Assembly (NCBI RefSeq): GCF_025639805.1
Contig: NZ_CP106735.1
Coordinates: 2,048,001 to 2,112,000, forward strand
Direction: 5' to 3'
From: Reichenbachiella carrageenanivorans
GTDB lineage: Bacteria > Bacteroidota > Bacteroidia > Cytophagales > Cyclobacteriaceae
DNA length: 64,000 nt
Shown here: piece by piece, positions 20,857-54,916 of the stretch
How the letters are laid out: every line of letters starts with the position of its first letter
How positions within the stretch are numbered: the first letter of the stretch is position 1
Program-made: the position numbers and the translations under genes
Notes under the pieces: generated by a model
Told to the model about the DNA's origin: nothing
The model's database searches: none
The model's input: only the letters and a program-made list of their open reading frames with translations

Positions 20857-23800
20857 GTGAAGAGAAATAGGTCATACTTATATAGCATGCTTAGGATACT
20901 AGGAGCAGTATTTTTTTGGTTGGGGAATAACCCGTCCATAGCTGCAGATCGCCCCCTAGAGTATGCACAAAAGCTGACCATATCAGACGGTCTGGCTCAC
21001 AATGGAGTGACCTCTATGCTTGAGGATTCGAAAGGCTATCTATGGATAGGCACTTATGATGGACTCAATCGCTACGATGGATATAATTTTGAAGTGTATA
21101 AAAATACACTTGAGCACCATCAGTTGCTGAGCAATCGAGTGCGAACCATTACAGAGGATAAAAATGGGAATATCTGGATTGGAACAGATGATGGGATTTC
21201 GCTCTACAATTATTCCGAAGAGCGGTTCAGTGATTTGTATTCTTATTTGGATTTGGCTCATAGTATGCATGGGCCAATAGTCCGAAAAATCCTCATGGAT
21301 GAAGAAAACGGATACATGATCTGTGCCATGGAGGATGGAGAGGTCTTAATTTTTAATGACGACGATTATTCTTTTAAGCAGGCTTTTGCTTTGCCAAGCG
21401 AAATGACCGAACAGATGGTGCATTTTTATGATGTCATCAAACTAGATAAGCAAAATTACCTCCTAGCATCGTCTATAGGGATCGTTCGTTTTAATCTGAA
21501 ACAAGGGAAATTTTATAGTATAATACCAGAAGACGTTATCCAAGCCAATTCTATTACTATCATTGGAGAAAACCATTTTTTAGTAACACAGAACGCTGGA
21601 TTTGTAATACTCAAAATAGATCGAAGTACTACAGATTATGGGATGACAGTGGAGTCGAAGCAAATGACTCAATTTCATTTTAACAGTGCCATGCTCGATG
21701 ATTTGGGCCATGTATGGCTCGGCACGGTCAATGCAGGCGTGATACAGATCCGAGGGGTCGAAGCACTCATCAACCAAACACCATGGATGACCTATCGCTA
21801 TAATGAAGACGATGGATTGCTACGTGTAGGCTGTATTGTGTCATCTACCTTAGGGAGTTCTTGGGTGGGGTCGTTCAATAAGGGGCTATTTCGATTCGAT
21901 ATCAATGAAAATCCATTCAAATCATACAATACCAGAATGAATTTTCCGAATGGCTTCAAAACCAATGAAATACTACATATGCGCGCCTTCGGTAGAAACA
22001 AGATATATGTAACGGCCAACCGAGGTGGGTTGGCTTTGTTCAATACGGACGAGCAGGTATTTGAACCTTTACCCTTTCAAATGCCAATAAATTCATCAGA
22101 TCGGGTAGGGGGTGTATTTGTGGGAGTGGACAAAGACATATGGATAAAGGCTGGAAGCTCTCCAGGTGTTTTAAGAGTTCGTCAAGGGCAATCCATCACG
22201 GAGACTGTCAGGTTTGAAGGCCTGCCTCAGTTTGATAAGGTAAGACCAGTCAATTGGGCCAATGACAAATTGGGAAATCTTTGGATTGCCAGCAATGAGG
22301 ATGTATATCTAGTAGCCATCGATGCAAATGGAGAAACTACAGGTGTAGCCTCTTTAAATAGTCACCCCTTTTTCAAAAACAAACCCATAAAACTGGCGAG
22401 GGTTATCTATCAAGATCCGATGTATCCATATATCTGGATTGGGACAGATGCAGATGGACTTTTTCGAATAGAATTTGAAAAAAATCAACCGCTTCAGGAA
22501 ATGAAAGTGATGAGTTTTCAGAGCGACAAGACCAACCCATATGCTATTTCGAGTGATTTTGTTTCCAGTATTATCCGTTTGCCCAATGGCGAACTGTGGA
22601 TAGGAACCGAACGAGGAGGCATCTGCAAAGTGCTGGATAGCGACAAAGAACCTAAATTTATTGTCTTTTCTGAAAAACATGGACTGTCCAATAATGTAGT
22701 AAAGAGCATTCAATACGATGATGAGTACAATCTATGGATTTCTACTAATATTGGCCTCAATAAATTCAATACCAAGACAAATGTCTTTCGCAAATTTAGC
22801 TTGGTCGACGGACTACCATTCGAAGATTTCACCTACCCTTCTGTCCAGTTAGACAATGGTTATTTTGTGTTTTCTGGAATGGAGGGGCTTTGTTATTTCA
22901 AGCCACAAGACATCAACGATAGTGAGGCGCTACCCAAGTTGGAGTTTGGAAACTTCAAGGTTTTCAATGACTTGGTGCAGCCAGGTGATTCTCTTCATGG
23001 TCGGGTCTTATTAGATCAGCGGATTAATAAAGTAGACCAAATTTCTTTGTATCACAACGAAAATGTGTTTTCGCTTGAGCTGAAATCACTGCATTATTCC
23101 AAGCCTGACAATTACTTTCTAAAATATCAGCTATATCCCGTCAACAACGACTGGGTCGAAGTGCCTTCGAGTCAGCGGACGGTCTATTACAACGGGCTCG
23201 TGCCAGGGAAGTATGAGCTTCGTGTCATGGCGTCCAATTCTCTCAACCAGTGGACGCAGCCACGTGTCTTGAAGATTGTCATAGACCCCCCCTTTTGGAA
23301 AACCAACTGGGCCTACTTCGGCTATGTACTTTTGGTTGCCTTGCTTATTGGGGTCATTATGAAGGTACTGCTTAGAATCAATTCACTAAGGCACAATTTG
23401 CAAATTGAAAAACTGGAAAAGCAACAAGTGAAGGAGTTAAATTCCTCTCGTTTGGAATTGTTTATGAATATATCTCATGAATTCAGGACACCACTCACCT
23501 TAGTGTCAGGTCTGATTTCGAGATTGGCCAATATGTTCAAATCCAACAAAGACGTGACGCACCATTTAGATTTGGTCCAGCGACAGTCCAAAAAGATGTT
23601 TCAGCTGATAGAGCAGGTTCATGATTATCAGAAAGCTCAGCAGAGTTTATTAAAACTCAATATGGCAGGTTTTGACGTGATCGATTTTATAGATGATATC
23701 AAAAAAGACTTTGAGTATCTCGCTTTGAGTAGTGGCAAACACTGGCAGGTGAAAGGCGACGCCCAGTCTCTCTATATGATGGGCGATAGAAAAAAACTGG

Positions 23801-25023
23801 AAATCGTACTCAACAACCTGATTAGCAATGCATTCAAATTTACCGAGGAGGGAGACTATATCACTTTAGCGTTTGCACACAAAGACGATGAGATCACCTT
23901 GTCGGTCACAGATACAGGCAGAGGGATCGATGATGTAGACTTGCCTAATCTCTTCAAGCGTTTTTATAGATCATGGAAAGAAAACACGTACTCTGTAGGT
24001 TCAGGAATTGGGCTTGAGTTTTCCAAAATGCTTGTAGAACTACACTATGGGACGATTGTAGTAGAGAGTGAATTAGGAGAGGGATCCAAATTTATAGTGA
24101 CCATACCTACCAAAGTCAGCGAAACCAATATCTATGACCAAGGCAAAATCACAGATATATTAAATACTGAAAGTGAAATAGAAGAAGTAGAGTTGGGGGC
24201 AGATGACCTTATGGCTACCGAAATCCCCGTAGATGAAAATCTGAAGGCACTCCATGTGTTTGTGGTAGAAGACAATGCCGACTTGCGAGAGTTTATTTCA
24301 GAAGTCCTGTCTGGTCATTTTCAAGTCTCCGCTTTTCATCACGGCATGCAGTGCCTCGATCAGATGGAAGAAGAATGGCCTGATCTCATTGTGAGTGATA
24401 TTCTCATGCCCGAAATGAACGGACTCGAACTGTGCCAAAAGGTCAAATCTGATATACGAACCAGTCACATTCCGATCATATTACTTACCTCACGGTCTAC
24501 CATTCAGGACAGGATCGTAGGATTAGAAGTGGGTGCAGATGCTTATATCAACAAACCGTTTGATGTAAAGCACTTGATCGTGCGAGCACAGACGCTCTTG
24601 AGGAATAGACAGCAGCTCAGAGAACGGTTTCAGAATGAACTACCACTCGTATTGCAAAAGACCGATAATGGCCAAAATGACCATGCCTTTTTGGAAAAGC
24701 TCTACGAGTTGATGGCCGAAAATCTAGATAATCAGGACGTAGATATCAATCTGTTTGCCAAAGAACTGTATCTAAACAGGACTCATTTTTACCAAAAAGT
24801 AAAAGCGTTGACCAACCAAACTCCTTTTGAGCTATTGAAAAACTACCGTTTGAAAAGAGCCGCTGAATTGCTTATGCAAAAGGATGCGAGAGTCAACGAA
24901 GTCTACATGATGACAGGGTTTAAAAGCCGCACACACTTCGCCAAGTTATTCAAAGAGAAGTATCACGCTACCCCGGGCAAATATGCCGAAGAGTCGCTCG
25001 ACAAGCTCAAGTCGAACGACTGA
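20857..25023 (+). CDS. Hybrid two-component system sensor-regulator (HTCS)
   Basis: 1388 residues, normal for an HTCS. Start GTG (KRNRSYLYSMLRILGAVFFWLG), with ATG at 20887 as alternative. Order: signal peptide; about 14 beta-propeller repeats of Reg_prop type (GYLWIGTYDGLNRYDGYNF, GNIWIGTDDGISLYN) to ~residue 720; Y_Y_Y domain (PDNYFLKYQLYPVNNDWVEV); membrane segment ~815-835 (AYFGYVLLVALLIGVIMKVLL); histidine kinase with H-box NISHEFRTPL (His874) and G boxes (VTDTGRGI, GSGIGLEFSKML); receiver with Asp1181 (IVSDILMPEMNG) and KPF; C-terminal AraC HTH (NRTHFYQKVKALTNQTPFELLKNYRLKRAAELL). It senses a periplasmic oligosaccharide and should activate the downstream PUL; it is the only regulator inside the locus. 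Confidence 0.95.
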   Translation: MKRNRSYLYSMLRILGAVFFWLGNNPSIAADRPLEYAQKLTISDGLAHNGVTSMLEDSKGYLWIGTYDGLNRYDGYNFEVYKNTLEHHQLLSNRVRTITEDKNGNIWIGTDDGISLYNYSEERFSDLYSYLDLAHSMHGPIVRKILMDEENGYMICAMEDGEVLIFNDDDYSFKQAFALPSEMTEQMVHFYDVIKLDKQNYLLASSIGIVRFNLKQGKFYSIIPEDVIQANSITIIGENHFLVTQNAGFVILKIDRSTTDYGMTVESKQMTQFHFNSAMLDDLGHVWLGTVNAGVIQIRGVEALINQTPWMTYRYNEDDGLLRVGCIVSSTLGSSWVGSFNKGLFRFDINENPFKSYNTRMNFPNGFKTNEILHMRAFGRNKIYVTANRGGLALFNTDEQVFEPLPFQMPINSSDRVGGVFVGVDKDIWIKAGSSPGVLRVRQGQSITETVRFEGLPQFDKVRPVNWANDKLGNLWIASNEDVYLVAIDANGETTGVASLNSHPFFKNKPIKLARVIYQDPMYPYIWIGTDADGLFRIEFEKNQPLQEMKVMSFQSDKTNPYAISSDFVSSIIRLPNGELWIGTERGGICKVLDSDKEPKFIVFSEKHGLSNNVVKSIQYDDEYNLWISTNIGLNKFNTKTNVFRKFSLVDGLPFEDFTYPSVQLDNGYFVFSGMEGLCYFKPQDINDSEALPKLEFGNFKVFNDLVQPGDSLHGRVLLDQRINKVDQISLYHNENVFSLELKSLHYSKPDNYFLKYQLYPVNNDWVEVPSSQRTVYYNGLVPGKYELRVMASNSLNQWTQPRVLKIVIDPPFWKTNWAYFGYVLLVALLIGVIMKVLLRINSLRHNLQIEKLEKQQVKELNSSRLELFMNISHEFRTPLTLVSGLISRLANMFKSNKDVTHHLDLVQRQSKKMFQLIEQVHDYQKAQQSLLKLNMAGFDVIDFIDDIKKDFEYLALSSGKHWQVKGDAQSLYMMGDRKKLEIVLNNLISNAFKFTEEGDYITLAFAHKDDEITLSVTDTGRGIDDVDLPNLFKRFYRSWKENTYSVGSGIGLEFSKMLVELHYGTIVVESELGEGSKFIVTIPTKVSETNIYDQGKITDILNTESEIEEVELGADDLMATEIPVDENLKALHVFVVEDNADLREFISEVLSGHFQVSAFHHGMQCLDQMEEEWPDLIVSDILMPEMNGLELCQKVKSDIRTSHIPIILLTSRSTIQDRIVGLEVGADAYINKPFDVKHLIVRAQTLLRNRQQLRERFQNELPLVLQKTDNGQNDHAFLEKLYELMAENLDNQDVDINLFAKELYLNRTHFYQKVKALTNQTPFELLKNYRLKRAAELLMQKDARVNEVYMMTGFKSRTHFAKLFKEKYHATPGKYAEESLDKLKSND

Positions 25024-25232: not shown

Positions 25233-27806
25233 ATGAAATCACACTACTGTCTTTTTGGATTTGGTTCAACCAAGTTCTATTTGTTTATCTGTTTGCTTAT
25301 GGGAGTCGGCCAGCTTCAAGCACAAACCTTAGAGGACCAGGCCAAACAAAAAATAACCGAATTAGAAACGCTTATCACCGCAGCCGAAAAAGAAGGAGTA
25401 GATGCTACCCCAGAGAAAATCACGGTACGTACTGCGGAGGTTTTTCTAAAATATGCCAACTGGGATGAGGCAAACAAGGCTACTAATGTAGACTACTTTA
25501 AACTCGTGCCGATATATGCAGATACGGCTACACAAGCGGCGGAATTTTTGCCAGACTACGAACGACGAGAGGTCATTAAAATGCTGGACGAGGGCATAGC
25601 TTACCTCACGAAATTGATAGCAGGAGAAGTATTTCGAAAGCCAGGACATCAATTTGATTGGTCTACAGCTACGCATCAAGGCGACCAGATTGTAGCGGAT
25701 GGTAGACCCGTATTTTTGTCTGATTATACTTGGAAACCCGCCACAGACGAATTGACAGAATATCACGGCAACGAAGACGGGTTTTATATTTCTCCTTCTC
25801 ATGTTTCTAACCAAGAAGGTGATCTCAATGCTTGGATGCTCAATGATTTGGCAGCTAAAGAATCAGGCACATTAGGGTTTATTTTTATCAACAATAAAGG
25901 AGTGAAACAATGGGCAGAAGATGCTTATGGGCCAGATTTTATCATGCGCGAAGAGACTTACACTGGATATGATATAGACAATCCAGGCGCTAGAGAAATG
26001 ATGGGCAAGCTATTGGAAGGTGTAGTTCCTACCATGGATGGTAAAAAATACAGCGAGTTGGGATACATGCTTTGTAATGAGCCCCATTTTTATACCAACA
26101 AGTCAGGAGAAAAAAACACTTGGGCGAGTGGGCCAGTTTCCGAATATAGTAAAGACAAGTTTAGAATTTGGCTCGAAGGAGTACATGGCACTATAGCAAC
26201 GCTTAATACCCTTTGGGGCACTAGTTTCGGTAGTTTCGATGAGGTGACTATAGACATCCCAATAGACCTATCATTGCGAGGTACACCTATGTGGTACGAT
26301 TGGGCTACATTCAATAATTATCGCGTGACCGAATGGTACAAGTGGTTGAAGTCAGAAATCAGAAAATATGACGCAGATGCCAAAGTGCACCTCAAAATCA
26401 TGCCTAACCTGTGGACAGAAAATGAAAGAAACCATGGCATAGATATGGAAGCGCTTACCGAAATGAGTGAAATCATAGGCAATGACGCAGGTGCCGCATA
26501 CAAAAGGATGTGGGGACACGGAGAGTGGGAAGAATATTACCAGTTCGAGTGGAGAGAGATGTGCATGGGACATGATTTTTATAAATCAGTAGGGCCCAAT
26601 AAAATCATGTACAACACCGAAGCGCACTTTTTGTCTACAGTCGTATCTAGAGATATGAATCAAGACCCAAGGTATGCACGCGCCACCTATTGGATGGCTC
26701 ATACCCAAGGCCTGACGGCAAGCCAAACTTGGTATTGGGCTAGACAGGAGGATGGATCTATTAGAAATGAATCTGGCAATGGCTACGCAGGATCCAATAA
26801 TCAGCAACCACGAATTGTAAATGAAGTGGCCAAGACGATGTACGATATCAACGCCTATGCAGAAGAGGTTTTGGCCATGCAGCGTCAGCGCAAGCCTATC
26901 AGAATATTTTATTCAGAGTCGTCGGCGTTCAATAAGTCCGCGCACATGGACGACGTATTTGAACTTTACGAAGATCTCAATTTCGAAGGAGTACCATTAG
27001 GCTTTGCGACCAAAAATATCATCGAATCTCAAGATAAATCACTTTGGGATGTGATCTTGGTGCATAAGACCGAATACGTTACCGAAGCCGAATTGGCAGC
27101 ACTTCAGAGTTACCTCAATGCAGGAGGAACGGTGATCGTAGATGCGGGGAGTCTCAAGAAAAACCAGTACGGCCAAGCACTAAGCACTAGCCTGTCTGGA
27201 GGCAATCTCATGACAGCAGGTAGCAGTGAAGATATGGCACAGAAGGCCATGACCTTGATCGAAAGCAAAGGAAATACCCCGGGAGTTACGCTTACCGAAA
27301 CTAGCACCGCAGGATTCAAAGGATGTATTTGGAAATGTGTGAAAAATGCTGACGGCAACCAAGTAGTCTCTATCGTCAATGTAGGCAAGGTAGATGCTAA
27401 AGTTAACCTAGCACTCAATGGCGCAACCCAAGGTACCGCGATCAAAGATCTGTTCAAAGGCATTGATATTCCTAATAATCAGGTACTGGAACCCTACGAT
27501 ATGCTATTTGTAGAAGTGAGGGACGAGAAAACCAAAGAAGTGTTAGAGGTAAAAAAAAAAGATAAGAAGGAAGCCGTGATTTTCCCTAATCCCACAAAAG
27601 GAGACGTGAATATTCGATTTTCTAAAATGGAAGAAAACGTAGAAGTCACCATTTTTGATATTTTGGGTAGGCCTGTTTCTACGCAGCAGTACAGTCAGGT
27701 GATGGAGGTCTCTGCGAAAATCGGAGAAAACCATCCTGCAGGCACCTATGTGCTACGCATTCAGGGCGACAATTTCAAACAAAGTCAATTGCTCATCAAA
27801 GAGTAA
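25233..27806 (+). CDS. GH42-like clan GH-A glycoside hydrolase with T9SS sorting domain
   Basis: 857 residues. Signal peptide to ~residue 31 (FICLLMGVGQLQAQ). Residues ~140-550 form a clan-A barrel: LGFIFINNKGVKQWAEDAYG, acid/base candidate Glu283 in YMLCNEPHFY, nucleophile candidate Glu463 in IMYNTEAHFLS, and SQTWYWARQEDGS. Residues ~575-690 resemble the trimerisation domain of GH42 beta-galactosidases (RIFYSESSAF, WDVILVHKTEYVTEAELAALQSYLNAGGTVIVDAGS). The C-terminus is a type A T9SS sorting domain (VIFPNPTKGDVNIRF, GTYVLRIQGDNF). Known relatives (GH42, GH50, GH165, GH167) act on beta-galactosides of algal galactans; the exact family cannot be set by eye. It is the first gene after the HTCS, so probably export to the medium or surface for first-line attack. 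Confidence 0.75.
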   Translation: MKSHYCLFGFGSTKFYLFICLLMGVGQLQAQTLEDQAKQKITELETLITAAEKEGVDATPEKITVRTAEVFLKYANWDEANKATNVDYFKLVPIYADTATQAAEFLPDYERREVIKMLDEGIAYLTKLIAGEVFRKPGHQFDWSTATHQGDQIVADGRPVFLSDYTWKPATDELTEYHGNEDGFYISPSHVSNQEGDLNAWMLNDLAAKESGTLGFIFINNKGVKQWAEDAYGPDFIMREETYTGYDIDNPGAREMMGKLLEGVVPTMDGKKYSELGYMLCNEPHFYTNKSGEKNTWASGPVSEYSKDKFRIWLEGVHGTIATLNTLWGTSFGSFDEVTIDIPIDLSLRGTPMWYDWATFNNYRVTEWYKWLKSEIRKYDADAKVHLKIMPNLWTENERNHGIDMEALTEMSEIIGNDAGAAYKRMWGHGEWEEYYQFEWREMCMGHDFYKSVGPNKIMYNTEAHFLSTVVSRDMNQDPRYARATYWMAHTQGLTASQTWYWARQEDGSIRNESGNGYAGSNNQQPRIVNEVAKTMYDINAYAEEVLAMQRQRKPIRIFYSESSAFNKSAHMDDVFELYEDLNFEGVPLGFATKNIIESQDKSLWDVILVHKTEYVTEAELAALQSYLNAGGTVIVDAGSLKKNQYGQALSTSLSGGNLMTAGSSEDMAQKAMTLIESKGNTPGVTLTETSTAGFKGCIWKCVKNADGNQVVSIVNVGKVDAKVNLALNGATQGTAIKDLFKGIDIPNNQVLEPYDMLFVEVRDEKTKEVLEVKKKDKKEAVIFPNPTKGDVNIRFSKMEENVEVTIFDILGRPVSTQQYSQVMEVSAKIGENHPAGTYVLRIQGDNFKQSQLLIKE

Positions 27807-27833: not shown

Positions 27834-29756
27834 ATGAAAAGACGTAGTTTTTTTAAAAAATCGGCAGGGGCAGCTGTAGCAGCTAGCCTGATGCCGCTAG
27901 GAGCGGAGGCAGTAGCTAGCAAGCAGGATATTGGGGTGCGTACGAGTGATAAGTGGCACCATTTAGGAAAGGGCAAATCAGAAATTCCCAATCGTAAGAA
28001 AAAAGTACAATACGAAGTAGTAGTGATAGGAGCAGGTATTGCTGGTATCTGTGCGGCCGTGACAGCGGCTCGCACAGGTGCCAAAACCGTGCTCATCAAC
28101 GACCGCTCGGTACTTGGGGGCAATGCCTCTAGCGAAATCCGTGTGACAGTCAACGGAGTACAATGGCTCAAAAATGAGCACCGGATGGAACGAGAAACGG
28201 GAGTCATAGAAGAATTTCAGTTGGAAAATTGGTATTACAACCCTCAGGAATCATACCCCGTGTGGGATCATGTCCTTTACGACTATGTGACACGCCAGCC
28301 CAACCTAGACGTAATGCTCAATACTCAAGCACTAGAAGCGTATATGGATGGCAGCCAGATCAAAGCTGCTAGATGTTGGCAAATGACAACCGAAACGGAG
28401 TATACCGTAGAAGGTCAGCAGTTTATCGATTGCTCTGGAGATGGTCTGCTTGCTGCTACAGCAGGAGCCGAATACCGAACGGGTAGAGAGGCTCGTGCTG
28501 AGTTTAACGAATCATTTGCACCTGAAGTGGCCGATGGCTGGCAGATGGGAGCCACACTCATGATGATCACCAAAGACATGGGCAGACCTGTGCCGTACTA
28601 TCCACCGTCCTTTACGATCAAATATGAGGCTGAAAAAGCCCACGATAGAAAAATCAAACAAATCAAAGAGGGATATTGGTGGGTAGAGTTGGGTAGCGAT
28701 GACGATATCATCGCAGATCAAGAATTCAACCGTCACAAACTCATGGGCTACATGCATGGCGTATGGGACTATATCAAAAACTCAGGAAACTTTCCCGAAT
28801 CTGAAAACATCGTATTGGACTGGGTGGGCTCTGTGCCAGGGCGTAGAGAATCTCGTCGTTTTATGGGAGATCATATACTCACCCAAAAAGAAATGGAAAA
28901 CTACAAGCATTTTCCCGATGCTGTGGGTTATGGCGGTTGGTCGCTCGATGAGCACAATCCTGGCGGAATCGAAAATCTATCCGAGCCACCAAGCTATTTT
29001 CATGACAAATTCAAACAGGTGTATGAAATCCCTTTCAAATCACTGTATTCAAAGAATATTACGAACCTCTTGTTTGCTGGTCGCAATGTAAGTGTGACAC
29101 ATATAGCCCTCTCATCTACTCGTGTGCAAGCCACTTGTGCTACTATGGGCATGGCCGTAGGTACAGCAGCAGCACTTGGCGTGCAAAAAGGCGTGACACC
29201 GAGACAGATAGCGAATGAGCATATCGATGAATTGCAAGAGCAACTCCTACGTGATGATGCCTATATCCCTAATCGACCAGCCAGAGATAGTAAGGATCTG
29301 GCGAGAAAGGCGGATGTATTGTTTGCGTCATCTACCACTAGTGGAGATGTGAAATTGCTCATCGATGGAGTCTCGCGAGATGAAATTGGAAAAATCCATC
29401 ATTGGCAGTCACGAGGCCTCGATGCCGAAGTACGGCTAGAGTGGAAAAAGCCAGTGAGTATATCTAGCATAGAGCTAAAAGGAGATACCAATCTCCAACG
29501 TGCCATTCACATGCATAAAAACCCACTTAAAAACAAAGACCAGGTATTGGGGATGCCCCCAGAGCTGATCAAGGCCTGTAGTGCACAAGTACGGGTGAAA
29601 GGCAAATGGGTAGATGTAGCATCGGTCTCCAACAACCTGACCAGGTTAGTGAAGATGAAGATTGATCCAGTTAAAACTACCGCGGTACGTATCCTTCTCA
29701 AAGAAACCTGGGGCGCTGAAAACATTAAGTTGTTTGAAATTCGCTGTTATAGCTAA
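27834..29756 (+). CDS. Tat-exported FAD-dependent oxidoreductase with C-terminal discoidin-like domain
   Basis: 640 residues from ATG 27834; an upstream TTG at 27807 would bury the signal. N-terminus KRRSFFKKSAGAAVAASLMPLGAEA is a twin-arginine signal, so the flavoprotein is folded in the cytoplasm and exported. Residues ~55-480 are an FAD_oxidored (PF12831-like) domain: YEVVVIGAGIAGICAAVTAARTGAKTVLINDRSVLGGNASSEIR, GQQFIDCSGDGLLAATAGAEYRTGRE, SVPGRRESRRF and LLFAGRNVSVTHIALSSTRVQATCATMGMAVGTAAAL. The last ~135 residues (EVRLEWKKPVSISSIELKGDTNLQRAI..., VRILLKETWGAENIKLFEIRC) look like a galactose-binding/F5-8 type beta-sandwich. Its stop shares a base with the next ATG (TAATG). Substrate is unknown; context suggests a sugar or glycan. 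Confidence 0.8.
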   Translation: MKRRSFFKKSAGAAVAASLMPLGAEAVASKQDIGVRTSDKWHHLGKGKSEIPNRKKKVQYEVVVIGAGIAGICAAVTAARTGAKTVLINDRSVLGGNASSEIRVTVNGVQWLKNEHRMERETGVIEEFQLENWYYNPQESYPVWDHVLYDYVTRQPNLDVMLNTQALEAYMDGSQIKAARCWQMTTETEYTVEGQQFIDCSGDGLLAATAGAEYRTGREARAEFNESFAPEVADGWQMGATLMMITKDMGRPVPYYPPSFTIKYEAEKAHDRKIKQIKEGYWWVELGSDDDIIADQEFNRHKLMGYMHGVWDYIKNSGNFPESENIVLDWVGSVPGRRESRRFMGDHILTQKEMENYKHFPDAVGYGGWSLDEHNPGGIENLSEPPSYFHDKFKQVYEIPFKSLYSKNITNLLFAGRNVSVTHIALSSTRVQATCATMGMAVGTAAALGVQKGVTPRQIANEHIDELQEQLLRDDAYIPNRPARDSKDLARKADVLFASSTTSGDVKLLIDGVSRDEIGKIHHWQSRGLDAEVRLEWKKPVSISSIELKGDTNLQRAIHMHKNPLKNKDQVLGMPPELIKACSAQVRVKGKWVDVASVSNNLTRLVKMKIDPVKTTAVRILLKETWGAENIKLFEIRCYS

Positions 29757-30883
29757 TGTATGCGATTGGGTATATATGGCTAGGGTGGATAGGAGCTTTT
29801 ATAAGTGCTCTTGTCCCCTGTTTCTCACTTGATGATCCAATAGCCATCACCCATTCTGTGGAGCTTTATCACCCTGGGATGTCTGCTGATGAAACAGGTC
29901 AGCTTCAGTTGGTAGAGCTCCGCAATACGCAAGGACAAACGGAGCAATATTATCTTGATGTAGAGTCGGTGATTTGTGCAGATCAGATCTGCAAGGTGGT
30001 TCCTGTGCGCTTGTATTGGGATCTATTAGGTCGCTATCAGCATTACGAATTGCGTCATGGAGTAGTGTTAGAAAAATCCGAAGGTCAACCTTTTGATCAG
30101 GAGGATTATGATCTATTGCAAACCATTCTAAAGAATCCTAATTCCAGTTTTGCAGAAATGACCTATGAGGATATTACCCGAACCAACGTACATGGTGAAG
30201 TGGATGGATACTCTGGTGCTACCTCTTTTATCTTAGGAAACCATGAGTCTGTGATAGGAGCCACATGGACTTGCTTTACACTCTGGCACTGGGTTTATGG
30301 TGAGGTAGTGGAGGTCATTAGGGAGATTTCAGGAGAAAACAGCACAGTGTTGGCACTTCAGACTTATATCGAGTCAGAGGACGACGCTTTTTGCACCTTT
30401 GCTCTGGAAGAGATCAATCGTAAGCCATACAATTCTGCTGAGATACAGAAAACAGTACTGGCTCATGCTTCTAGTTTTAATGAAAAGCAGTTTTTTCTAG
30501 CCCTGAAGTATTTCAATCAATGGCCTGATGAAGTTTATTTCTCTTCTGTTTTAGCTCTTTTAGACAAAACCTCACCAAGTCATAGTGTTTTACTATTGAA
30601 TGAAATTGTAAATACTCGGCGTGTGATTGCTACCGATTTTTATGATTCCTTCTCAAGGTATCTCTCATCAGAGATGTCTTATCAAGAGGTAGATTTAGTG
30701 ATTCAGATGCTTGAAAAACACCCAACAAATTCTTTGCAGATACATCAGCAGTTGTTCAACTTATTGACCGACGATATTTTGACTTCGCGTAGCGTATACT
30801 GGTATCTGTCTGGGCTGTCTTTGACTAAACCTCAGGAATTGCAATTAGAAATTTATTATAAAAAACACCAACAAAATCTTTGA
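29756..30883 (+). CDS. FMN-binding-like exported protein, putative flavinylation target
   Basis: 375 residues, translationally coupled to the FAD oxidoreductase. An N-terminal hydrophobic segment (residues 3-24) may be a signal or anchor, though it lacks the usual positive n-region and its Cys22 follows Pro, so a lipobox is doubtful. Residues ~75-175 resemble the FMN-binding domain: VRLYWDLLGRYQHYELRHGVVLEKSEGQPFDQEDYDLL, then VDGYSGATS. The stretch D150-G-Y-S-G-A-T156 fits the D-g-x-(s/t)-g-A-T motif at which ApbE transferases attach FMN to Thr. The C-terminal ~190 residues are helical, HEAT-like. No gene in this window encodes ApbE. Inferred role: electron partner of the upstream flavoenzyme; direct homology was not testable here. 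Confidence 0.6.
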   Translation: MYAIGYIWLGWIGAFISALVPCFSLDDPIAITHSVELYHPGMSADETGQLQLVELRNTQGQTEQYYLDVESVICADQICKVVPVRLYWDLLGRYQHYELRHGVVLEKSEGQPFDQEDYDLLQTILKNPNSSFAEMTYEDITRTNVHGEVDGYSGATSFILGNHESVIGATWTCFTLWHWVYGEVVEVIREISGENSTVLALQTYIESEDDAFCTFALEEINRKPYNSAEIQKTVLAHASSFNEKQFFLALKYFNQWPDEVYFSSVLALLDKTSPSHSVLLLNEIVNTRRVIATDFYDSFSRYLSSEMSYQEVDLVIQMLEKHPTNSLQIHQQLFNLLTDDILTSRSVYWYLSGLSLTKPQELQLEIYYKKHQQNL

Positions 30884-30959
30884 TCAATAGGGAATGAAGA
30901 GAAGTGCCTTTTTGTGCACAATTCGCTCCATGTTTATTGAAAACACAACCTTAAAGAAT

Positions 30960-32582
30960 ATGACGAATAAGTTGAAAACAAAATGGATACAGAGGTCAGC
31001 TCCACTTGTGGCGCTGGTGTTTCTGATCGCATGTGGATCTGAGATCCAAACGGAAGTCTATCGACCGATCAGTGGAGAGGGCAAATATATACTTACACCA
31101 GAAGCACCAGGCACACCTCAAATCAATGGGCCAGCTGTGTTTGGTGTGCGTCCAGGCTCACCCTTTTTATATACAATTCCAGCTACTGGACAGCGTCCAC
31201 TGACTTTCGAAGTGCAAAACCTGCCAGCAGGTTTACAGCTCGATGTGCACACAGGCGTGATCAGTGGTACGATCTCAGATAAGTCCATGCGCAATTACAA
31301 CATCACTTTGGTGGCTAAAAACCAATTAGGTGTAGACCGCAAAGTACTTGAGGTAAAAGTGGGACAAACCATCTGTCTCACACCACCATTGGGCTGGAAC
31401 TCATGGAACTGCTGGAAAACGCAGGTGACCCAAGAGCGCGTCTTGGCTTCTGCTCGTGCCATGGTAGACAAAGGGTTGTCCAACTATGGGTGGTCTTTCA
31501 TCAACATCGATGATGCTTGGCAAGGTCTGCGTGGAGGAAAGCACCAAGGCATACAAGCAGATCCAGTGAAGTTTCCAGATATGAAACAAATGTGCGATGA
31601 AATACATGCCATGGGGCTCAAAGTAGGGATCTATTCTTCGCCTTGGATCACCACTTACGCAGGCTATGTAGGAGGATCGAGCCAAAATCCAGAGGGAGAC
31701 TGGGACGATACTACTATGCATCCCGACGATTTACGTAAGACCAAGGCCTTTTGGCAAGTGGGTGAGTATACTTTCGATGATAAAGATGCCCTGCAGTGGG
31801 CCGATTGGGGGATCGATTATTTGAAATATGACTGGAACCCTAATGATCGAGCAAGTACGCAGCGAATGGCTGACGCACTCCAAAATAGCGGTAGAGATAT
31901 TGTCTATTCGTTATCCAATACTGCGCCCATGCAGCATGCAGATTTATTCTCCAAAGTAGTCAATTGTTTTCGAACGGCTGGCGATCTCAAAGATCGTTGG
32001 GATCAGGAAGGTAGCCACCTCAACATCCGAGAGGAGTGGGTGCTGCATCGCAATTGGCTCGATTCTGCTTTTAGCGGTTCGCCAGGCCACTACCCAGATG
32101 CAGATATGCTTGTGATTGGCGATGTAGTCACTAGTGGCCCTGAAGGCAAGCCTGTGCCTTCTCGACTTACAGCCGATGAGCAGTATAGCCATGTGTCACT
32201 ATGGACACTGTGGTCATCTCCATTGCTCATAGGTTGCCCTATAGAGACCCTGGACGATTTCACACTCAACCTGCTCACCAATAGTGAAGTACTCGATATT
32301 CATCAAGATGCTGTGGGAGTAGCCGCTCAATCAGTGTATCTCGACGAGGGGTCTGAGATTTTTGTCAAAGTATTGGCAGATGGTAGCAAAGCCGTGGGTC
32401 TTTTCAATACTGGAAAAGAGTCTCAGACCATAGCAATGCCCTGGTCTCTTGCCAAACTACAAGGCGTTCAGCAGGTGAGAGACGTCTGGAGGCAAAAAGA
32501 CATTGGTTTGTACGAGGGGAAATTTTCGGCTCAAGTACCTTCACATGGAGTGGTTTTAGTTCGCTTCATGGCGAATGAATAA
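30960..32582 (+). CDS. GH27 alpha-galactosidase-like lipoprotein with Ig-like domain
   Basis: 540 residues from ATG 30960, chosen because it gives a clean lipoprotein signal (KTKWIQRSAPLVALVFLIACGS); the frame is open back to 30894. Residues ~55-130 form a putative Ig/He_PIG domain (PLTFEVQNLPAGLQLDVHTGVISGT). The GH27 barrel begins CLTPPLGWNSWNCW and includes YGWSFINIDDAWQG, MGLKVGIYSSPW, the nucleophile Asp291 in YLKYDWN, and FRTAGDLKDRW with the likely acid/base Asp; LWSSPLLIGCPIETLDDFTLNLLTN is also typical. A C-terminal beta domain follows. It should release terminal alpha-linked galactose, at the outer membrane or periplasm. Close to the FMN-binding-like gene (76 bp), same strand. Confidence 0.9.
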   Translation: MTNKLKTKWIQRSAPLVALVFLIACGSEIQTEVYRPISGEGKYILTPEAPGTPQINGPAVFGVRPGSPFLYTIPATGQRPLTFEVQNLPAGLQLDVHTGVISGTISDKSMRNYNITLVAKNQLGVDRKVLEVKVGQTICLTPPLGWNSWNCWKTQVTQERVLASARAMVDKGLSNYGWSFINIDDAWQGLRGGKHQGIQADPVKFPDMKQMCDEIHAMGLKVGIYSSPWITTYAGYVGGSSQNPEGDWDDTTMHPDDLRKTKAFWQVGEYTFDDKDALQWADWGIDYLKYDWNPNDRASTQRMADALQNSGRDIVYSLSNTAPMQHADLFSKVVNCFRTAGDLKDRWDQEGSHLNIREEWVLHRNWLDSAFSGSPGHYPDADMLVIGDVVTSGPEGKPVPSRLTADEQYSHVSLWTLWSSPLLIGCPIETLDDFTLNLLTNSEVLDIHQDAVGVAAQSVYLDEGSEIFVKVLADGSKAVGLFNTGKESQTIAMPWSLAKLQGVQQVRDVWRQKDIGLYEGKFSAQVPSHGVVLVRFMANE

Positions 32583-33759: not shown

Positions 33760-35115
33760 ATGATTATGAAGAAGAGTTCAATTTTATTTTTAATGATGTT
33801 TGTTTTTGGCTACAGCCAAGCACAGGATCAGCCCAATATTGTTTTATTATTTGTGGATGATTATGGGTGGTCAGACGTAGGGTATCGCAACAGCACGTTC
33901 CATACCCCTCATATCGATCAACTCAAGTCGGAAAGCTTGGATTTTTCCAGAGCCTATGTCACCACACCTACCTGTAGTCCTAGTCGGGCTTCGTTGCTCA
34001 CGGGCAAAGAATCTATTCGAATGGGATTGCCTCGCCATATCATAGATGGTGATAGCAAGAATGCAACCTTCGGCTCAGACGGATCTATTTCAGAATACAA
34101 TTATTGGCCTACAGATCCAGTACAGATGCCTTCGCGCAACTGGCTGCCCTTAGAGGAAATCACCTATGCGGAGCGTCTCAAGGAATTTGGGTATTACAAT
34201 ATGTTTATTGGGAAGTGGCATCTCGGACACGAACCATACCATCCTACTTTGCAAGGGTTCGACGATTACTATGGCTATGCTAATGCGGGTCATCCCAAAG
34301 GCTACTATGCCCCATTTTTCAAACATGAAAATATGCTGTCTGAGTTTGGTAGTGAGGATTATCTCACGGATGTACTTACCGACAAAGCAGAGGATTTTAT
34401 CAAAAACCACGATCGTAAGCAGCCTTTTATGCTGTCTATGTGGTACTACAATGTCCATGGCCCACACAGAGGACGCAAGGACTTTTTAGAACAATACAAA
34501 AAAGAAGGGCTAGAAGATAGATATGCCAACTATGCAGCGATGGTGAGTGCCATGGACGAGTCGGTGGGTAGAGTCAGGCAGGCGTTGGCCGAGGAGGGAC
34601 TAGACAAAAATACCATTATCATCTTTACTTCTGATCAAGGAGGGTATTTCACTAATGCACCTCTTTCGGGAGGCAAAACTGGTGGTAATACCTTGGGAGA
34701 AGGAGGTGCCAGAGTGCCTTTTATGATTTTGTATCCTGGCGTGACTACGCCAAATACCACTACAGGTCAGCCCATTCAGACACTAGATGTATACCCTACA
34801 CTCATAGAGATTGCATCGGGCAAAAAATGTAAAGACACCCAGATCAACGGAGTAAGCCTACTGCCAGTGTTAGCAGGTAAAAAATTGAAGTCAAGAGACT
34901 TACACTTTTTTAGAAGTTATGAAGATCAGTATGCAGCTATAATGTCTGGAGATTGGAAGCTTGTCAAATATCACAGTGGAAAATATGAGTTGTTCAATAT
35001 TGGTGAAGACATCAGCGAACAAAATAATCTCATAGGCCAGGGGTTGAAACAAGAGCAGCAGTTGATGGATCGGCTCGATCGATGGGAGCAGGAAGCTGTC
35101 CCAGTTTACAACTAA
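33760..35115 (+). CDS. S1-family sulfatase (formylglycine type), secreted
   Basis: 451 residues; ATG at 33760 or 33766, both giving the signal KKSSILFLMMFVFGYSQAQ. Metal-binding FVDDYGWSDVGY (Asp33/Asp34), the formylglycine motif TCSPSRASLLTG with Cys72, GKWHLGH, and IIIFTSDQGGYFT mark a type I sulfatase. Maturation by an FGE or anSME enzyme encoded elsewhere is needed. The C-terminal region (YEDQYAAIMSGDWKLVKYHSGKYELFNIGEDISEQNNL) is complete. No lipobox, so periplasmic or secreted. It is the first of two adjacent sulfatases (20 bp gap), which differ in the region after the Cys motif, suggesting different sulfate positions. Confidence 0.93.
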   Translation: MIMKKSSILFLMMFVFGYSQAQDQPNIVLLFVDDYGWSDVGYRNSTFHTPHIDQLKSESLDFSRAYVTTPTCSPSRASLLTGKESIRMGLPRHIIDGDSKNATFGSDGSISEYNYWPTDPVQMPSRNWLPLEEITYAERLKEFGYYNMFIGKWHLGHEPYHPTLQGFDDYYGYANAGHPKGYYAPFFKHENMLSEFGSEDYLTDVLTDKAEDFIKNHDRKQPFMLSMWYYNVHGPHRGRKDFLEQYKKEGLEDRYANYAAMVSAMDESVGRVRQALAEEGLDKNTIIIFTSDQGGYFTNAPLSGGKTGGNTLGEGGARVPFMILYPGVTTPNTTTGQPIQTLDVYPTLIEIASGKKCKDTQINGVSLLPVLAGKKLKSRDLHFFRSYEDQYAAIMSGDWKLVKYHSGKYELFNIGEDISEQNNLIGQGLKQEQQLMDRLDRWEQEAVPVYN

Positions 35116-35135
35116 CGAGATTAAAATAAATAAGC

Positions 35136-36524
35136 ATGAAATACAATTACTCACTAATTACAGCGATATGTGTCCTAGTAGGATTAGGTCTTGTCAGCTG
35201 TACAGACAAACCTGAAGTAGTAAAGCCACCCAATGTGTTGTTTTTATTGGTAGACGACATGGGCTACGGCGAACTGGCGTCTTATGGTCAGGAAGTAATT
35301 CAAACACCACACTTAGATGAGTTGGCAAGTCAGGGAATGAGCTTCAATAATTTTTATACAGGTACGTCGGTATGTTCCCCCTCTCGGGCATCGCTTATGA
35401 CAGGGATGCATACTGGGCATGTTAGTATCAGAGGAAATAAAGGGCAGTATGACGATGGGAAATGGGATAGAGTTCCCCTCAAAAAATCGGAAGTTACGTT
35501 AGGTGAAATGATGAAATCCGCAGGCTATCAAACGGCCTTTGTCGGTAAATGGCACCTGGGGCTACCAGAGGATTTGAGTACTTGGGCGATGGGACGTGGA
35601 TATGACTATGCCGTGCAGGAGCAATGGGGTACATCAGACAAAGGAGAAACCTTCGACGAGCGTATGCATTGGATCAACAATCGCATGGATTCATCTTTTT
35701 ATGATTATACCAAATACGATTGTATAGACGAGTTTAGAACCAATTTTGCTTTAGAGTATTTGGAAAAAAAGTCTACTGACAAGCCTTTTTTCTTACTCAT
35801 GTCTTATAGAATACCTCATGCACATGAGTTTTTTTTGAGAGATACTACGATGTATACAGGGCGTGGCTGGCCAGAGATTGAGCGCAGACATGCTGCCAGA
35901 ATCACCATGTTAGACCAGCAGGTTCATCGTCTACTTAGCCAGCTCGAAAAGAGTGGAGAGTTAGAAAATACACTAGTCATATTCACCAGCGACAATGGCC
36001 CTCACAATGAGAATAAGCACGACAAGGATTTCTTTCAGAGCTCTGGTGGACTCAAAGGCTACAAAAGAGACTTGCACGAGGGAGGTATTCGTGTGCCTAT
36101 GATCGCCTACTGGAAAGGCAAAGTAGCTGCTGGCATACGTACCGATCAACAGGCTGTGTTTTATGATGTGATGCCTACTTTGGCAGATTTGGTGGGGATA
36201 GCTGCCCCAGATCAAACGGACGGCGTATCATTTTTGCCGACGCTATTGGGACAAACGCAGACCGAACAACACGATCATTTTTATTGGGAAATCCAAGAAG
36301 GCTCAAATGCCAAAGGGTTTAAACAAGCCGCATTAAAAGACCAATGGAAAGCGGTAAGGGTTGCGGATAGCTATCATACAGAATTGTATGATTTGAGCAC
36401 GGATCCGTACGAACAAAATGATCGCTCGGCAGATTATCCAGAGCTTGTAGAGCAAATGAATCAAATATTAAAAACAGAAAGTGTAGTGATCGAACACTAC
36501 CCTTATTCAGGAGGTATATTCTAA
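35136..36524 (+). CDS. S1-family sulfatase lipoprotein
   Basis: 462 residues. Lipobox LVSC (Cys22) indicates membrane anchoring. Motifs: FLLVDDMGYGELASYGQ, TSVCSPSRASLMTG with formylglycine Cys80, HTGHVSIRGNKGQ, GYQTAFVGKWHLGLP, FFLLMSYRIPHAHEF, VIFTSDNGPHNENKHDKDFFQSSGGLKGYKRDLHEGGIRVPMIAYWKG, a pattern shared with the sulfatase at 58916 and typical of arylsulfatase A-like PUL enzymes. The stop overlaps the start of the next GH2 gene (TAATG), so desulfation and beta-galactoside cleavage are probably co-produced. Confidence 0.94.
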   Translation: MKYNYSLITAICVLVGLGLVSCTDKPEVVKPPNVLFLLVDDMGYGELASYGQEVIQTPHLDELASQGMSFNNFYTGTSVCSPSRASLMTGMHTGHVSIRGNKGQYDDGKWDRVPLKKSEVTLGEMMKSAGYQTAFVGKWHLGLPEDLSTWAMGRGYDYAVQEQWGTSDKGETFDERMHWINNRMDSSFYDYTKYDCIDEFRTNFALEYLEKKSTDKPFFLLMSYRIPHAHEFFLRDTTMYTGRGWPEIERRHAARITMLDQQVHRLLSQLEKSGELENTLVIFTSDNGPHNENKHDKDFFQSSGGLKGYKRDLHEGGIRVPMIAYWKGKVAAGIRTDQQAVFYDVMPTLADLVGIAAPDQTDGVSFLPTLLGQTQTEQHDHFYWEIQEGSNAKGFKQAALKDQWKAVRVADSYHTELYDLSTDPYEQNDRSADYPELVEQMNQILKTESVVIEHYPYSGGIF

Positions 36525-38953
36525 TGAGAAAGGCTTACATCTACACAACAGCAATAGGTTTATGGGTCTCATGGTGCGTGTGTGCCAGTAGTTTTGGGCA
36601 AGCAGTGGTACAGACTACTGTGAGATCACAGGCCAAATTCAACAAAAATTGGAAATTTGAACAGGCAGATAATCCAGTATATCGCTCGCCAGATTTTGAT
36701 GATACCGCTTGGCGCACACTCGACCTGCCACACGACTGGAGCATAGAAGGCGATTACAGCGCAGACCATCCGTCAGGAGCTAGAAACGGCTATTTCCCAG
36801 AAGGGATTGGCTGGTATCGCAAAAGCTTTATACTGGGAGACTCACTCACCTACAAACAATTGGCGATACAGTTCGACGGTGTGTTTATGAATTCAGAAGT
36901 CTGGATCAATGGTCATTTCTTAGGGAGATACCCATACGGGTACAATACTTTCCAATATGGCCTCACAGAGTTTCTCCATATAGGAGATGGACAGGAGAAC
37001 GTATTGGCCGTGAGAGTAGACAATTCACTCCCAGAGGCTACCCGATGGTACAATGGCTCGGGCATCTATCGCAATGTGCATTTGATCACGACCAACTATA
37101 CGCACTTCAATAATTATGATGGCGTATTTGTGACTACACCAGTAGCTCAAGCCGAAAGAGCAGTGATTCATATAGACTATCGTGTCATTGGCAATCTTTT
37201 CTCGAAAGCCGAAATAGATAAGTATAGAGCAAATAAATGGAAAAAGGAAAAAGTGCAGCACGCCTGTACGCTTAGGTCTATAGTATACGATGCACAAGGC
37301 CAAGAAGTCGCGCGCGTAGAGCAGCAGCAATCCCTAGAAAATTTCGATAAGCATATTGCATACGCTCAAGAACTGGAAGTGAAAAGTCCTAAAAGATGGT
37401 CTGCAGATACTCCGTATATGTATTACCTCAAAAGCGAAATCGAATATGAGGGCAAGATACTCGACGATAAGGTAACGCCATTTGGTATCCGTCACCTAGA
37501 GTATCATCCAGACAAAGGAATGCTTGTCAACGAAAAACAAGTAAAACTCAAAGGCGTGAGTTTGCACCATGATGGTGGATCTGTAGGTGCGGCGGTTCCA
37601 GACAAAATCTGGTATTATCGCCTCAAAAAATGGAAAGAAATGGGATGCAATGCCATACGTACTACTCACAATCCTTTTTCTCCCGAGTTTTATAATATGT
37701 GTGACACCATGGGATTCTATGTGCTCAATGAAGCCTTCGATGAGTGGACGATGGGCTGGGCTTACAATTTTTCTGAAAACAATAGAGGCAAGGCAGACAA
37801 CGGCTATCAGCACTATTTCGATCAGTGGGCAGAAACAGACCTGCGAGCCATGATTCGCAGAGATCGCAATCACCCCTCGGTAGTCATGTACAGTATAGGC
37901 AATGAAATCCCCGATCAGCTAGACAAACTTGGGGGGCAAAAGGCGCAGCGCTTAGTCGCGATTTGTCACGAAGAAGATCCTACTCGACCCGTCACTGCGG
38001 GCAATGATCAGGCTGTCAAAGGGCGAGTATCTGGTTTGATGGATGCTTTGGATATCTCTGGATACAACTATGTGGCTCGTCATCACAAAGAAGAAATGTA
38101 CGCTCCCGAGAGAGCGCTACGACCAGACAAACTATGTATTGGTACGGAGACCAGCCTTACATTAGATTATTTCTTGGCCTATCGCGACAATGATTATGTA
38201 CTAGGACAATTTGTCTGGGTAGGGCAAGATTACCTCGGAGAAGCCAAAAAAGCTCCACAGCGTGGTTGGCAGCGAGGACTCCTCGATGTGTCTGGCAATC
38301 CTCGACCTTCCTTTTATCAGCACCAAAGCTATTGGAGTGAGACTCCAGTCATCCACATGGTGGCCGCCAAAGACAGTGTAAACGGAACCCTCAGATCATC
38401 TTGGAACTGGGACAAAAAAGATAAAATGTTTCTCTCCGTATATACCAACTGCGATGAAGTGGAGCTTTCGCTCAATGGCAAATCTCTAGGTAGAAAAAAA
38501 GTAGATCCAGATACCTATCTGTTAGAATGGCCACTCTCTTATCAGCCAGGAGAGCTCAAGGCCAAAGGCTATACCAATAGAAAAGTAGTAGCCGAACATG
38601 TATTGAAGACCACTGGTCGCCCTAGTGAAGTGGTAGCTCACCCAGTTTGGACGCAGCTTGTGGCCGACAATCAAGACATTTCGATTCTCGAAGTATCACT
38701 GGTCGACAAGTACGGACGCATAGTGCCCGAAGCCGTCAATGAAGTAAATGTGACAATAGATGGCCCCGCCCGCTTGTTGGGTATTGATAGCGGTGACTTG
38801 TACTACGAAGGGAAATTCTCTGACCCAAAAAGAAACGCAACTAGAGGAAAGATGCTTGTGATCATCCAGGCCAAAGATACCCCAGGAGAGGTCAGGGTGA
38901 AGCTAGCGAGTGAAAAACTCAAACCAGCGGAGATAACCCTAGAAGTGAAGTAA
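36524..38953 (+). CDS. GH2 beta-galactosidase-like enzyme, first of three
   Basis: 809 residues, signal peptide to about residue 27 (SWCVCASSFGQA). Domain order: sugar-binding jelly roll (FNKNWKFEQ, DLPHDWSIEGDY, GWYRKSF), Ig-like domain, TIM barrel (KLKGVSLHHDGGSVGAAVPDKIWYYRLKKWKEMGCNAIRTTHNPFSPEFY), acid/base Glu461 in YSIGNEIPDQ, nucleophile Glu542 in CIGTETS, then DUF4982 and GH2_C5-like domains (VYTNCDEVELSLNGKSLGRKK; DGPARLLGIDSGD). This architecture is standard for PUL beta-galactosidases. The start codon shares a base with the sulfatase stop. The paralogue at 41376 has the same layout, while the one at 39025 differs in the active-site context. Confidence 0.93.
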   Translation: MRKAYIYTTAIGLWVSWCVCASSFGQAVVQTTVRSQAKFNKNWKFEQADNPVYRSPDFDDTAWRTLDLPHDWSIEGDYSADHPSGARNGYFPEGIGWYRKSFILGDSLTYKQLAIQFDGVFMNSEVWINGHFLGRYPYGYNTFQYGLTEFLHIGDGQENVLAVRVDNSLPEATRWYNGSGIYRNVHLITTNYTHFNNYDGVFVTTPVAQAERAVIHIDYRVIGNLFSKAEIDKYRANKWKKEKVQHACTLRSIVYDAQGQEVARVEQQQSLENFDKHIAYAQELEVKSPKRWSADTPYMYYLKSEIEYEGKILDDKVTPFGIRHLEYHPDKGMLVNEKQVKLKGVSLHHDGGSVGAAVPDKIWYYRLKKWKEMGCNAIRTTHNPFSPEFYNMCDTMGFYVLNEAFDEWTMGWAYNFSENNRGKADNGYQHYFDQWAETDLRAMIRRDRNHPSVVMYSIGNEIPDQLDKLGGQKAQRLVAICHEEDPTRPVTAGNDQAVKGRVSGLMDALDISGYNYVARHHKEEMYAPERALRPDKLCIGTETSLTLDYFLAYRDNDYVLGQFVWVGQDYLGEAKKAPQRGWQRGLLDVSGNPRPSFYQHQSYWSETPVIHMVAAKDSVNGTLRSSWNWDKKDKMFLSVYTNCDEVELSLNGKSLGRKKVDPDTYLLEWPLSYQPGELKAKGYTNRKVVAEHVLKTTGRPSEVVAHPVWTQLVADNQDISILEVSLVDKYGRIVPEAVNEVNVTIDGPARLLGIDSGDLYYEGKFSDPKRNATRGKMLVIIQAKDTPGEVRVKLASEKLKPAEITLEVK

Positions 38954-39024
38954 GAACAGGAAGAAACGGTTCGGAGAATGGCATATATTGAAAGTAAGTT
39001 GAGAGATAGTAAAATAGAAAGGAT

Positions 39025-41373: not shown

Positions 41374-41375
41374 TA

Positions 41376-54905: not shown

Positions 54906-54916
54906 TAAGCAGAGAT

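Follow-up and report, generated by a model that had tools for sequence, protein, structure and literature searches.

The window studied here is the whole stretch of 64,000 nucleotides from Reichenbachiella carrageenanivorans (contig NZ_CP106735.1, positions 2,048,001 to 2,112,000), in which SusC and SusD, glycoside hydrolases (GH) and a regulator occur together as a polysaccharide utilization locus (PUL) of the SusCD type. Two overlapping genes inside this locus, here named FADox and FMN-like, encode proteins that are both predicted to be exported, and they probably form a conserved, PUL-bound redox pair in which FMN-like is flavinylated. Their features are given below in window coordinates; FAD and FMN stand for flavin adenine dinucleotide and flavin mononucleotide, Tat for twin-arginine translocation and aa for amino acids.

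27834..29756, plus strand: FADox, FAD-dependent oxidoreductase of family PF12831, Tat-type export predicted, 640 aa (Pfam, predicted model)
27834..27938, plus strand: twin-arginine signal region of FADox, residues 1-35, MKRRSFF start (conservation of the N-terminus)
28014..29246, plus strand: FAD-binding catalytic domain of FADox, residues 61-471
29289..29753, plus strand: CBM32-like C-terminal beta sandwich of FADox, residues 486-640
29756..30883, plus strand: FMN-like, predicted exported and putatively ApbE-flavinylated carrier, 375 aa (motif, conservation, predicted model)
29894..30295, plus strand: divergent FMN-binding-like domain of FMN-like, residues 47-180 (predicted model; weak PF04205 matches in relatives)
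29975..29992, plus strand: C74-x4-C79 hairpin of FMN-like with conserved cysteines, the third being C173 (alignment)
30203..30223, plus strand: putative flavinylation motif D150-G-Y-S-G-A-T156 of FMN-like (conservation; ApbE motif definition in PMC12052999)
30341..30880, plus strand: HEAT/ARM-like helical repeat of FMN-like, residues 196-375 (fold search)

FADox matches PF12831 with an E-value of 5e-89 over profile positions 1-416 of 416, which is the whole domain, and its predicted model reached a predicted local distance difference test (pLDDT) of 81.9 and a predicted template modelling score (pTM) of 0.86. It is classed as a PF12831 enzyme, for which FAD binding and redox activity are predicted. 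The preliminary description of this DNA had noted a twin-arginine signal and a galactose-binding-like C-terminal domain, and both were borne out. Residues M1, R3, R4 and F6 are each at least 90% conserved (n=53 aligned sequences), an RR pair lies within the first 15 residues in 45 of the 53, and residues 486-640 adopt a CBM32-like fold. The reported overlap of the two genes is also exact, one base being common to the TAA stop of FADox and the ATG of FMN-like. Export was assigned by the usual rules for Sec substrates (FMN-like) and Tat substrates (FADox).

The motif recognized by ApbE for flavinylation is D-x-x-[S/T]-G-A-[S/T] (PMC12052999). It is found once in the 37 open reading frames (ORFs) of the window, as DGYSGAT at residues 150-156 of FMN-like, and its chance expectation from composition in a protein of this length is 0.002. 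An alignment of 92 FMN-like sequences, including that of the window and with entries of identical C-terminal 200 residues removed, kept T156 and D150 in 91 sequences each, G154 in 89 and A155 in 85. Conservation of T156 had been set beforehand as one of the points on which the claim could fall; judged from the alignment and from the occurrence of ApbE described below, the motif is not a chance occurrence. The cysteines C74 (90/92), C79 (91/92) and C173 (88/92) are retained as well, and under a simple Kyte-Doolittle rule a hydrophobic N-terminal segment is predicted in 84 of the 92. In its database version (P0001, 334 aa) FMN-like is predicted to begin only at Met42, without the region 29756-29878 of the window, so that protein lacks the signal region and the conserved H39-P40.

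The linkage to ApbE is visible in three gene rows, with the order sulfatase-FADox-ApbE-FMNlike at L106 and the identical order SusC-SusD-FMNlike-FADox-ApbE at L110 and L154. The ApbE of L054, on the opposite strand and about 5.6 kb away, was not counted as a gene-row case. ApbE is present in 49 of 49 searched genomes with FMN-like, which are not all such genomes known and include a few from other phyla, versus 80 of 149 genomes sampled from the class to which the window belongs, a comparison uncorrected for kinship. The source genome encodes one ApbE outside the locus (G000:C1:1374616-1375446), as the preliminary description had led one to look for, and one canonical FMN_bind match, an NqrC. 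FMN-like is described as putatively ApbE-flavinylated, with FMN expected on its motif.

The protein search with FMN-like returned the protein itself and nine relatives, and the genome scan returned 63 loci in records named as Bacteroidota, Kiritimatiellota, Planctomycetota or Verrucomicrobiota, near-identical loci being kept in the counts. In 55 of the 63, the gene immediately preceding FMN-like on the same strand is FADox. In a sample of 395 genomes of the phylum, nine presented an FMN-like match, one of them weak (G223, E 4.6e-4); that genome held no FMN-like and was dropped. Among 72,556 plasmid records FADox was found over at least 80% of its length in two only, and FMN-like in the same two only. 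The Flammeovirga kamogawensis plasmid carries the pair adjacent amid lambda-carrageenase-like, GH110 and sulfatase genes, with FMN-like annotated as 'hypothetical protein', and the Persicobacter plasmid carries a sulfatase between FADox and FMN-like, followed by SusC/SusD. A chance neighbourhood of two unrelated genes in a large PUL, for which nothing speaks beyond the missing annotation, is refuted by the 55 loci in four phyla and by the two plasmids, and its probability is negligible. A second clade of exported FADox proteins, of about 600 aa and 31-38% identical to that of the window, has FMN-like relatives of its own, several in SusCD loci. Other arrangements were also observed: two FADox/FMN-like pairs in tandem (L005:2809-11110), three FADox-type genes around a single FMN-like (L008:5814-12903), and an FMN-like gene beside two large proteins of 631 and 1114 aa with no PF12831 enzyme there (L158:8541-15097).

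That the pair would occur mainly in polysaccharide loci, as expected in the preliminary description, agrees with the gene content of the loci of at least 18 kb. Any PUL marker was found in 46/53 of these versus 1/20 controls, sulfatases in 45/53 versus 0/20, and GH167, GH110, GH127 or lambda-carrageenase in 31/53 versus 0/20. A gene counted as a marker when its best blastp match (E<=1e-10) was a gene of the window or a representative tested with Pfam, and the controls, 20 ApbE-centred regions from 20 of the FMN-like genomes (one of 16.9 kb, the others of 20 kb), indicate PUL enrichment and not its exact size. In the window, the pair is surrounded by the following genes:

20857..25023, plus strand: hybrid two-component regulator (HTCS) of the PUL
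25233..27806, plus strand: GH167 glycoside hydrolase, immediately upstream of FADox (PDB 9whd, E 3.8e-278)
30894..32582, plus strand: GH27-type alpha-galactosidase (PF16499)
33760..36524, plus strand: two sulfatases, at 33760-35115 and 35136-36524 (PF00884)
36524..44411, plus strand: three GH2 enzymes
49755..51641, plus strand: GH110 alpha-1,3-galactosidase-like enzyme
51810..56665, plus strand: SusC/SusD pair
58916..60388, plus strand: third sulfatase of the PUL (PF00884)

GH167 and GH110 have been tied to carrageenan (PMC6262041), and since GH167 lies upstream of the pair and GH110 and sulfatases lie downstream, the locus is regarded as carrageenan-type. No endo-carrageenase of families GH16, GH82 or GH150 was found among the 18 ORFs scanned between 20857 and 60388; blastp placed lambda-carrageenase-like genes in 9 of the 63 related loci. 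The window locus resembles the carrageenan PULs of Zobellia and Pseudoalteromonas in its GH110, GH2, GH42-like (GH167) and sulfatase genes, and that of Zobellia also in SusC/SusD, but no exported flavin redox pair is described for those PULs in the text available from the two reports (PMC5698469, PMC6262041). A PhoD-like phosphatase of 841 aa is also encoded inside the locus (44441-46966).

The predicted model of FMN-like (pLDDT 91.4, pTM 0.84) places in residues 47-180 the strands 47-56, 62-75, 78-88 and 94-99, a helix at 115-126, the motif loop and a helix at 170-180. The same order of strands and helices is found in solved FMN-binding domains (PMC10339131), whose fold runs through three antiparallel strands, a helix, the motif and a second helix. 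A profile alignment by hhalign of FMN-like with seven canonical FMN-binding sequences, one of which (L131) was wrongly cut, scored 37.3 versus at most 19.1 in shuffles and beat 60 of 60. FMN-like is similar to NqrC, RnfG and the multi-FMN PF04205 carriers in its D-x-x-[S/T]-G-A-[S/T] motif, its predicted export, the presence of ApbE in the genome and in the three gene rows, and its strand/helix order. It differs from the NqrC/RnfG-type PF04205 carriers by lying, in the window, below Pfam detection, by C74, C79 and C173, by the fused HEAT/ARM-like repeat and by its tie to PULs. We propose that the pair is a variant, so far undescribed in the literature searched, of flavinylated extracytosolic electron transfer.

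Whether FMN-like is needed outside the cytoplasm was judged from PF12831 paralogues. A FADox search of the 395 genomes, in which no more than three candidates of each genome were scored, gave 18 matches at E<=2e-50, of which 16 were looked at, ten exported and six signal-less. FMN-like lies beside eight of the exported ten, in one case with ApbE between, and adjoins none of the six, which are forms of 758-799 aa without an export signal. An SSF symporter adjoins the signal-less enzyme in L109 and L115, and likewise in L155 and L169 outside the 18. This pattern favours FMN-like as a partner needed outside the cytoplasm, with exceptions given below. The source genome itself holds a second, signal-less PF12831 enzyme of 758 aa and 41% identity (G000:C1:2749733-2752009, corresponding to L115:8734-11010), flanked by an SSF symporter and a GH2-like gene, with no FMN-like there.

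The same evidence bears on another view of FMN-like, namely that it is a HEAT-repeat scaffold or chaperone whose motif is kept for structure, or an FMN-binding sensor, and not the carrier of FADox. The ARM/HEAT-like repeat makes up half of the protein, the conservation of the three cysteines comes close to that of the motif, and the similarity to PF04205 is weak, all of which would suit such a role. The retention of T156 and D150, the ApbE genes in the three rows and the fact that six cytosolic PF12831 enzymes in the phylum sample do without FMN-like argue against it, and we consider the scaffold or sensor quite improbable.

The reading preferred here, to which we give good though incomplete confidence, is that the pair consists of a periplasmic flavin dehydrogenase acting on galactan pieces, with electron exit via a covalently flavinylated HEAT/ARM-repeat carrier. 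FADox would be loaded with FAD in the cytosol and exported by Tat, its CBM32-like domain would hold it on the glycan or an oligosaccharide, and its FAD would serve to oxidise galactan or oligosaccharides. FMN-like would be exported by Sec, and ApbE, encoded elsewhere in the genome, would attach FMN to Thr156. Reduced FADox may then pass electrons to the FMN of FMN-like, with the HEAT/ARM repeat as the likely docking surface, and FMN-like may pass them to a membrane or cytochrome acceptor encoded outside the locus. Sequence evidence establishes the pair and its conservation, the motif, the linkage to ApbE and the PUL context; we infer the attachment of FMN, the flow from FADox to FMN-like, and oxidation as its direction. 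What persists from the overall interpretation of the preliminary description is the pairing, in galactan loci, of an exported FAD enzyme with an exported protein that is putatively flavinylated, supported by the motif, the ApbE gene rows and the strand/helix order. The observation is confirmed and stands stronger than before, and the C-terminal HEAT/ARM repeat, the three conserved cysteines, the carrageenan-type context and a recurrent CstA carrier are additions to it.

Several results weigh against this reading. The FMN-binding fold expected in the preliminary description agrees with the model in strand/helix order, but the motif loop lies under pLDDT 50, and the fold-search list is filled by the helical repeat; the search was run on full-length FMN-like, so its list is informative on that repeat only and absent families are not thereby excluded. 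FMN-like had no Pfam match below 0.1 (the sole match up to E 10 being a coiled-coil at 0.16); NCBIfam gave nothing up to 0.1, and a sequence search of the PDB nothing up to E 10. The gathering cut-off of PF04205 is not reached by the FMN-like of the window; that family was matched at E<=1 by just 15 of 68 relatives (best 0.0018), and ten more distant members tested singly gave one match, at 0.22. The hhalign comparison confidently aligns the motif alone. The metagenome protein P0003, the sole exception at position 156, has S for T in a broken motif (GPS), and ApbE stands in the gene row of 0/63 loci from the genome scan. Eight of these 63 (L041, L042, L043, L048, L052, L053, L056, L059) are without an adjacent FADox. 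Contig ends cut L043 and L056; in L042 two PF12831 genes lie 3 to 9 kb upstream of FMN-like; and the neighbour is instead a nitroreductase in L041, a cytochrome-type membrane protein in L048 and an acetolactate decarboxylase in L052. As for export, exported enzymes without FMN-like occur in L107 (a FADox) and in G347 (a PF12831 enzyme), and the second FADox of L005 shows no signal. Signal-less 614-aa paralogues occur at L008:11059-12903, L012:11070-12914 and L009:2607-4451, with a fragment at L027:11080-11631 and an SSF symporter beside three of them. Those of L008, L012 and, as the fragment, L027 come directly after FMN-like, which has an exported FADox on its other side; in L008 and L012 the SSF gene is next; the argument from export is weakened by these neighbours. 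No general membrane redox partner was found in the loci.

The electrons could also flow in reverse, FADox being a periplasmic reductase similar to fumarate or urocanate reductase, fed via flavinylated FMN-like and reducing a substituent or an oxidised sugar released by galactan breakdown. Flavocytochrome c3 and urocanate reductase are among the solved relatives of FADox, and the hosts of the 63 loci include Labilibacter, Saccharicrinis and Pontiellaceae, which are facultative or strict anaerobes. Many hosts are aerobic flavobacteria, however, and a reductive step on a food polysaccharide brings no obvious gain. The FAD domain of FrdA and UrdA is FAD_binding_2, but FADox belongs to PF12831, and no full-length FAD_binding_2 was found in it, the PF00890 match being confined to residues 62-98 (37 residues). 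Published cases that combine FMN-binding and FAD domains, FrdA and UrdA, are reductases, and as in those systems an extracytosolic FAD enzyme is joined here with a domain for covalent FMN, putative in our case (PMC8238504). In Listeria FrdA the FMN domain is part of the same protein (PMC8238504), while the present pair comprises two proteins, with PF12831 and a CBM32-like domain, in sugar loci and probably with the opposite direction. A reversed flow is unlikely on this balance. Another related system is the flavinylated NapH-like protein with the exaA alcohol oxidase, for which a flavinylated relay has been proposed for electrons from an extracytosolic oxidase; that system has a different oxidase, a membrane NapH-like protein and no PUL (PMC8238504).

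A short membrane carrier of the CstA family (PF02554; one representative Pfam-tested) recurs in 15 of the 63 loci; counted from FMN-like it is the +1 gene in 13 of them and the +3 gene in two. It follows FMN-like in both FMN-like clades (L004, L012, L013, L031, L109, L111 and others). The +1 gene had been taken for Gfo/Idh/MocA (GH109-like), an assignment discarded after Pfam showed CstA. Its position at +1 suggests the import of a small product, and CstA proteins are pyruvate or peptide carriers. In a special form of the preferred oxidative reading, the module would oxidatively strip a non-sugar substituent such as methyl, pyruvyl or lactyl, and the CstA-family carrier would import the acid. 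The recurrence of CstA, also beside FADox in L107 and after the second-clade pairs of L109 and L111, is in line with this. However, 48 of the 63 loci are without CstA within the stretch examined, the source genome has no CstA match, for which reason CstA was rejected as an obligatory partner, and a separate P450-ferredoxin-reductase set accompanies L108. Substituent removal in this form is rather unlikely.

In the literature consulted, flavinylated carriers are described as serving respiration and iron reduction, and polysaccharide loci as hydrolytic. In the text available from a flavinylation survey the word polysaccharide is absent (PMC8238504), and in that of its 2024 follow-up neither polysaccharide nor glycan occurs (PMC11334425). 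A search of the open-access literature, as far as its texts were accessible, returned no description of a flavin redox pair in polysaccharide loci. An FAD-dependent oxidoreductase near a SusC/D pair of Maribacter is reported in PMC11345257, in whose available text the word flavin is absent. A figure legend of the carrageenan paper PMC5698469 lists 'FR/SR' and 'UNK', which could be an earlier sighting of the pair without a function.

As a conserved feature of carrageenan-type loci, the flavin redox pair would bring a further enzymatic step to galactan breakdown, and a family of hypothetical proteins known from dozens of genomes would acquire a function; if true, a sulfated polysaccharide of algae would yield energy outside the cytoplasm. 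More tentatively, the PULs for red-algal sulfated galactans may include an oxidation in the periplasm that is linked to the electron-transport chain by a dedicated, covalently flavinylated HEAT-repeat carrier, the polysaccharide being not just hydrolysed but also partly respired outside the cytoplasm. The cassette of FADox and FMN-like, which may or may not include CstA and ApbE and involves several PF12831 subfamilies, might then be a general system of extracytosolic glycan oxidation in Bacteroidota, Kiritimatiellota, Verrucomicrobiota and Planctomycetota.

Cytochrome-type genes stand beside the loci L048 and L058 and near L031, which would fit a cytochrome acceptor in some hosts. In Neolewinella agarilytica (L058:11261-16007) a PSCyt1-PSCyt2-PSD1 protein and a DUF1501 protein are encoded directly after the pair. 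Near the pair of Tamlana (L165:6059-7500 with L031:16860-19156) are genes for a Mo-hydroxylase (its 2Fe-2S and molybdopterin subunits), for XdhC and MobA, and for a small cytochrome c; XdhC and MobA occur in only five loci each and were rejected as general partners. Genes for a P450, a 2Fe-2S ferredoxin, a ferredoxin reductase and a zinc alcohol dehydrogenase lie beside the pair in L108:12108-17858 (by Pfam) and L010:11105-16745 (by eye). They resemble sets for oxidative O-demethylation, and P450/ferredoxin sets of this kind act on 6-O-methyl-galactose. Near the pair in L049:11095-17126 and L108:2222-7890 there are also CoA-transferase family III genes (one tested, in L049) and, by eye, enoyl-CoA hydratase-like and aldehyde-dehydrogenase-like genes.

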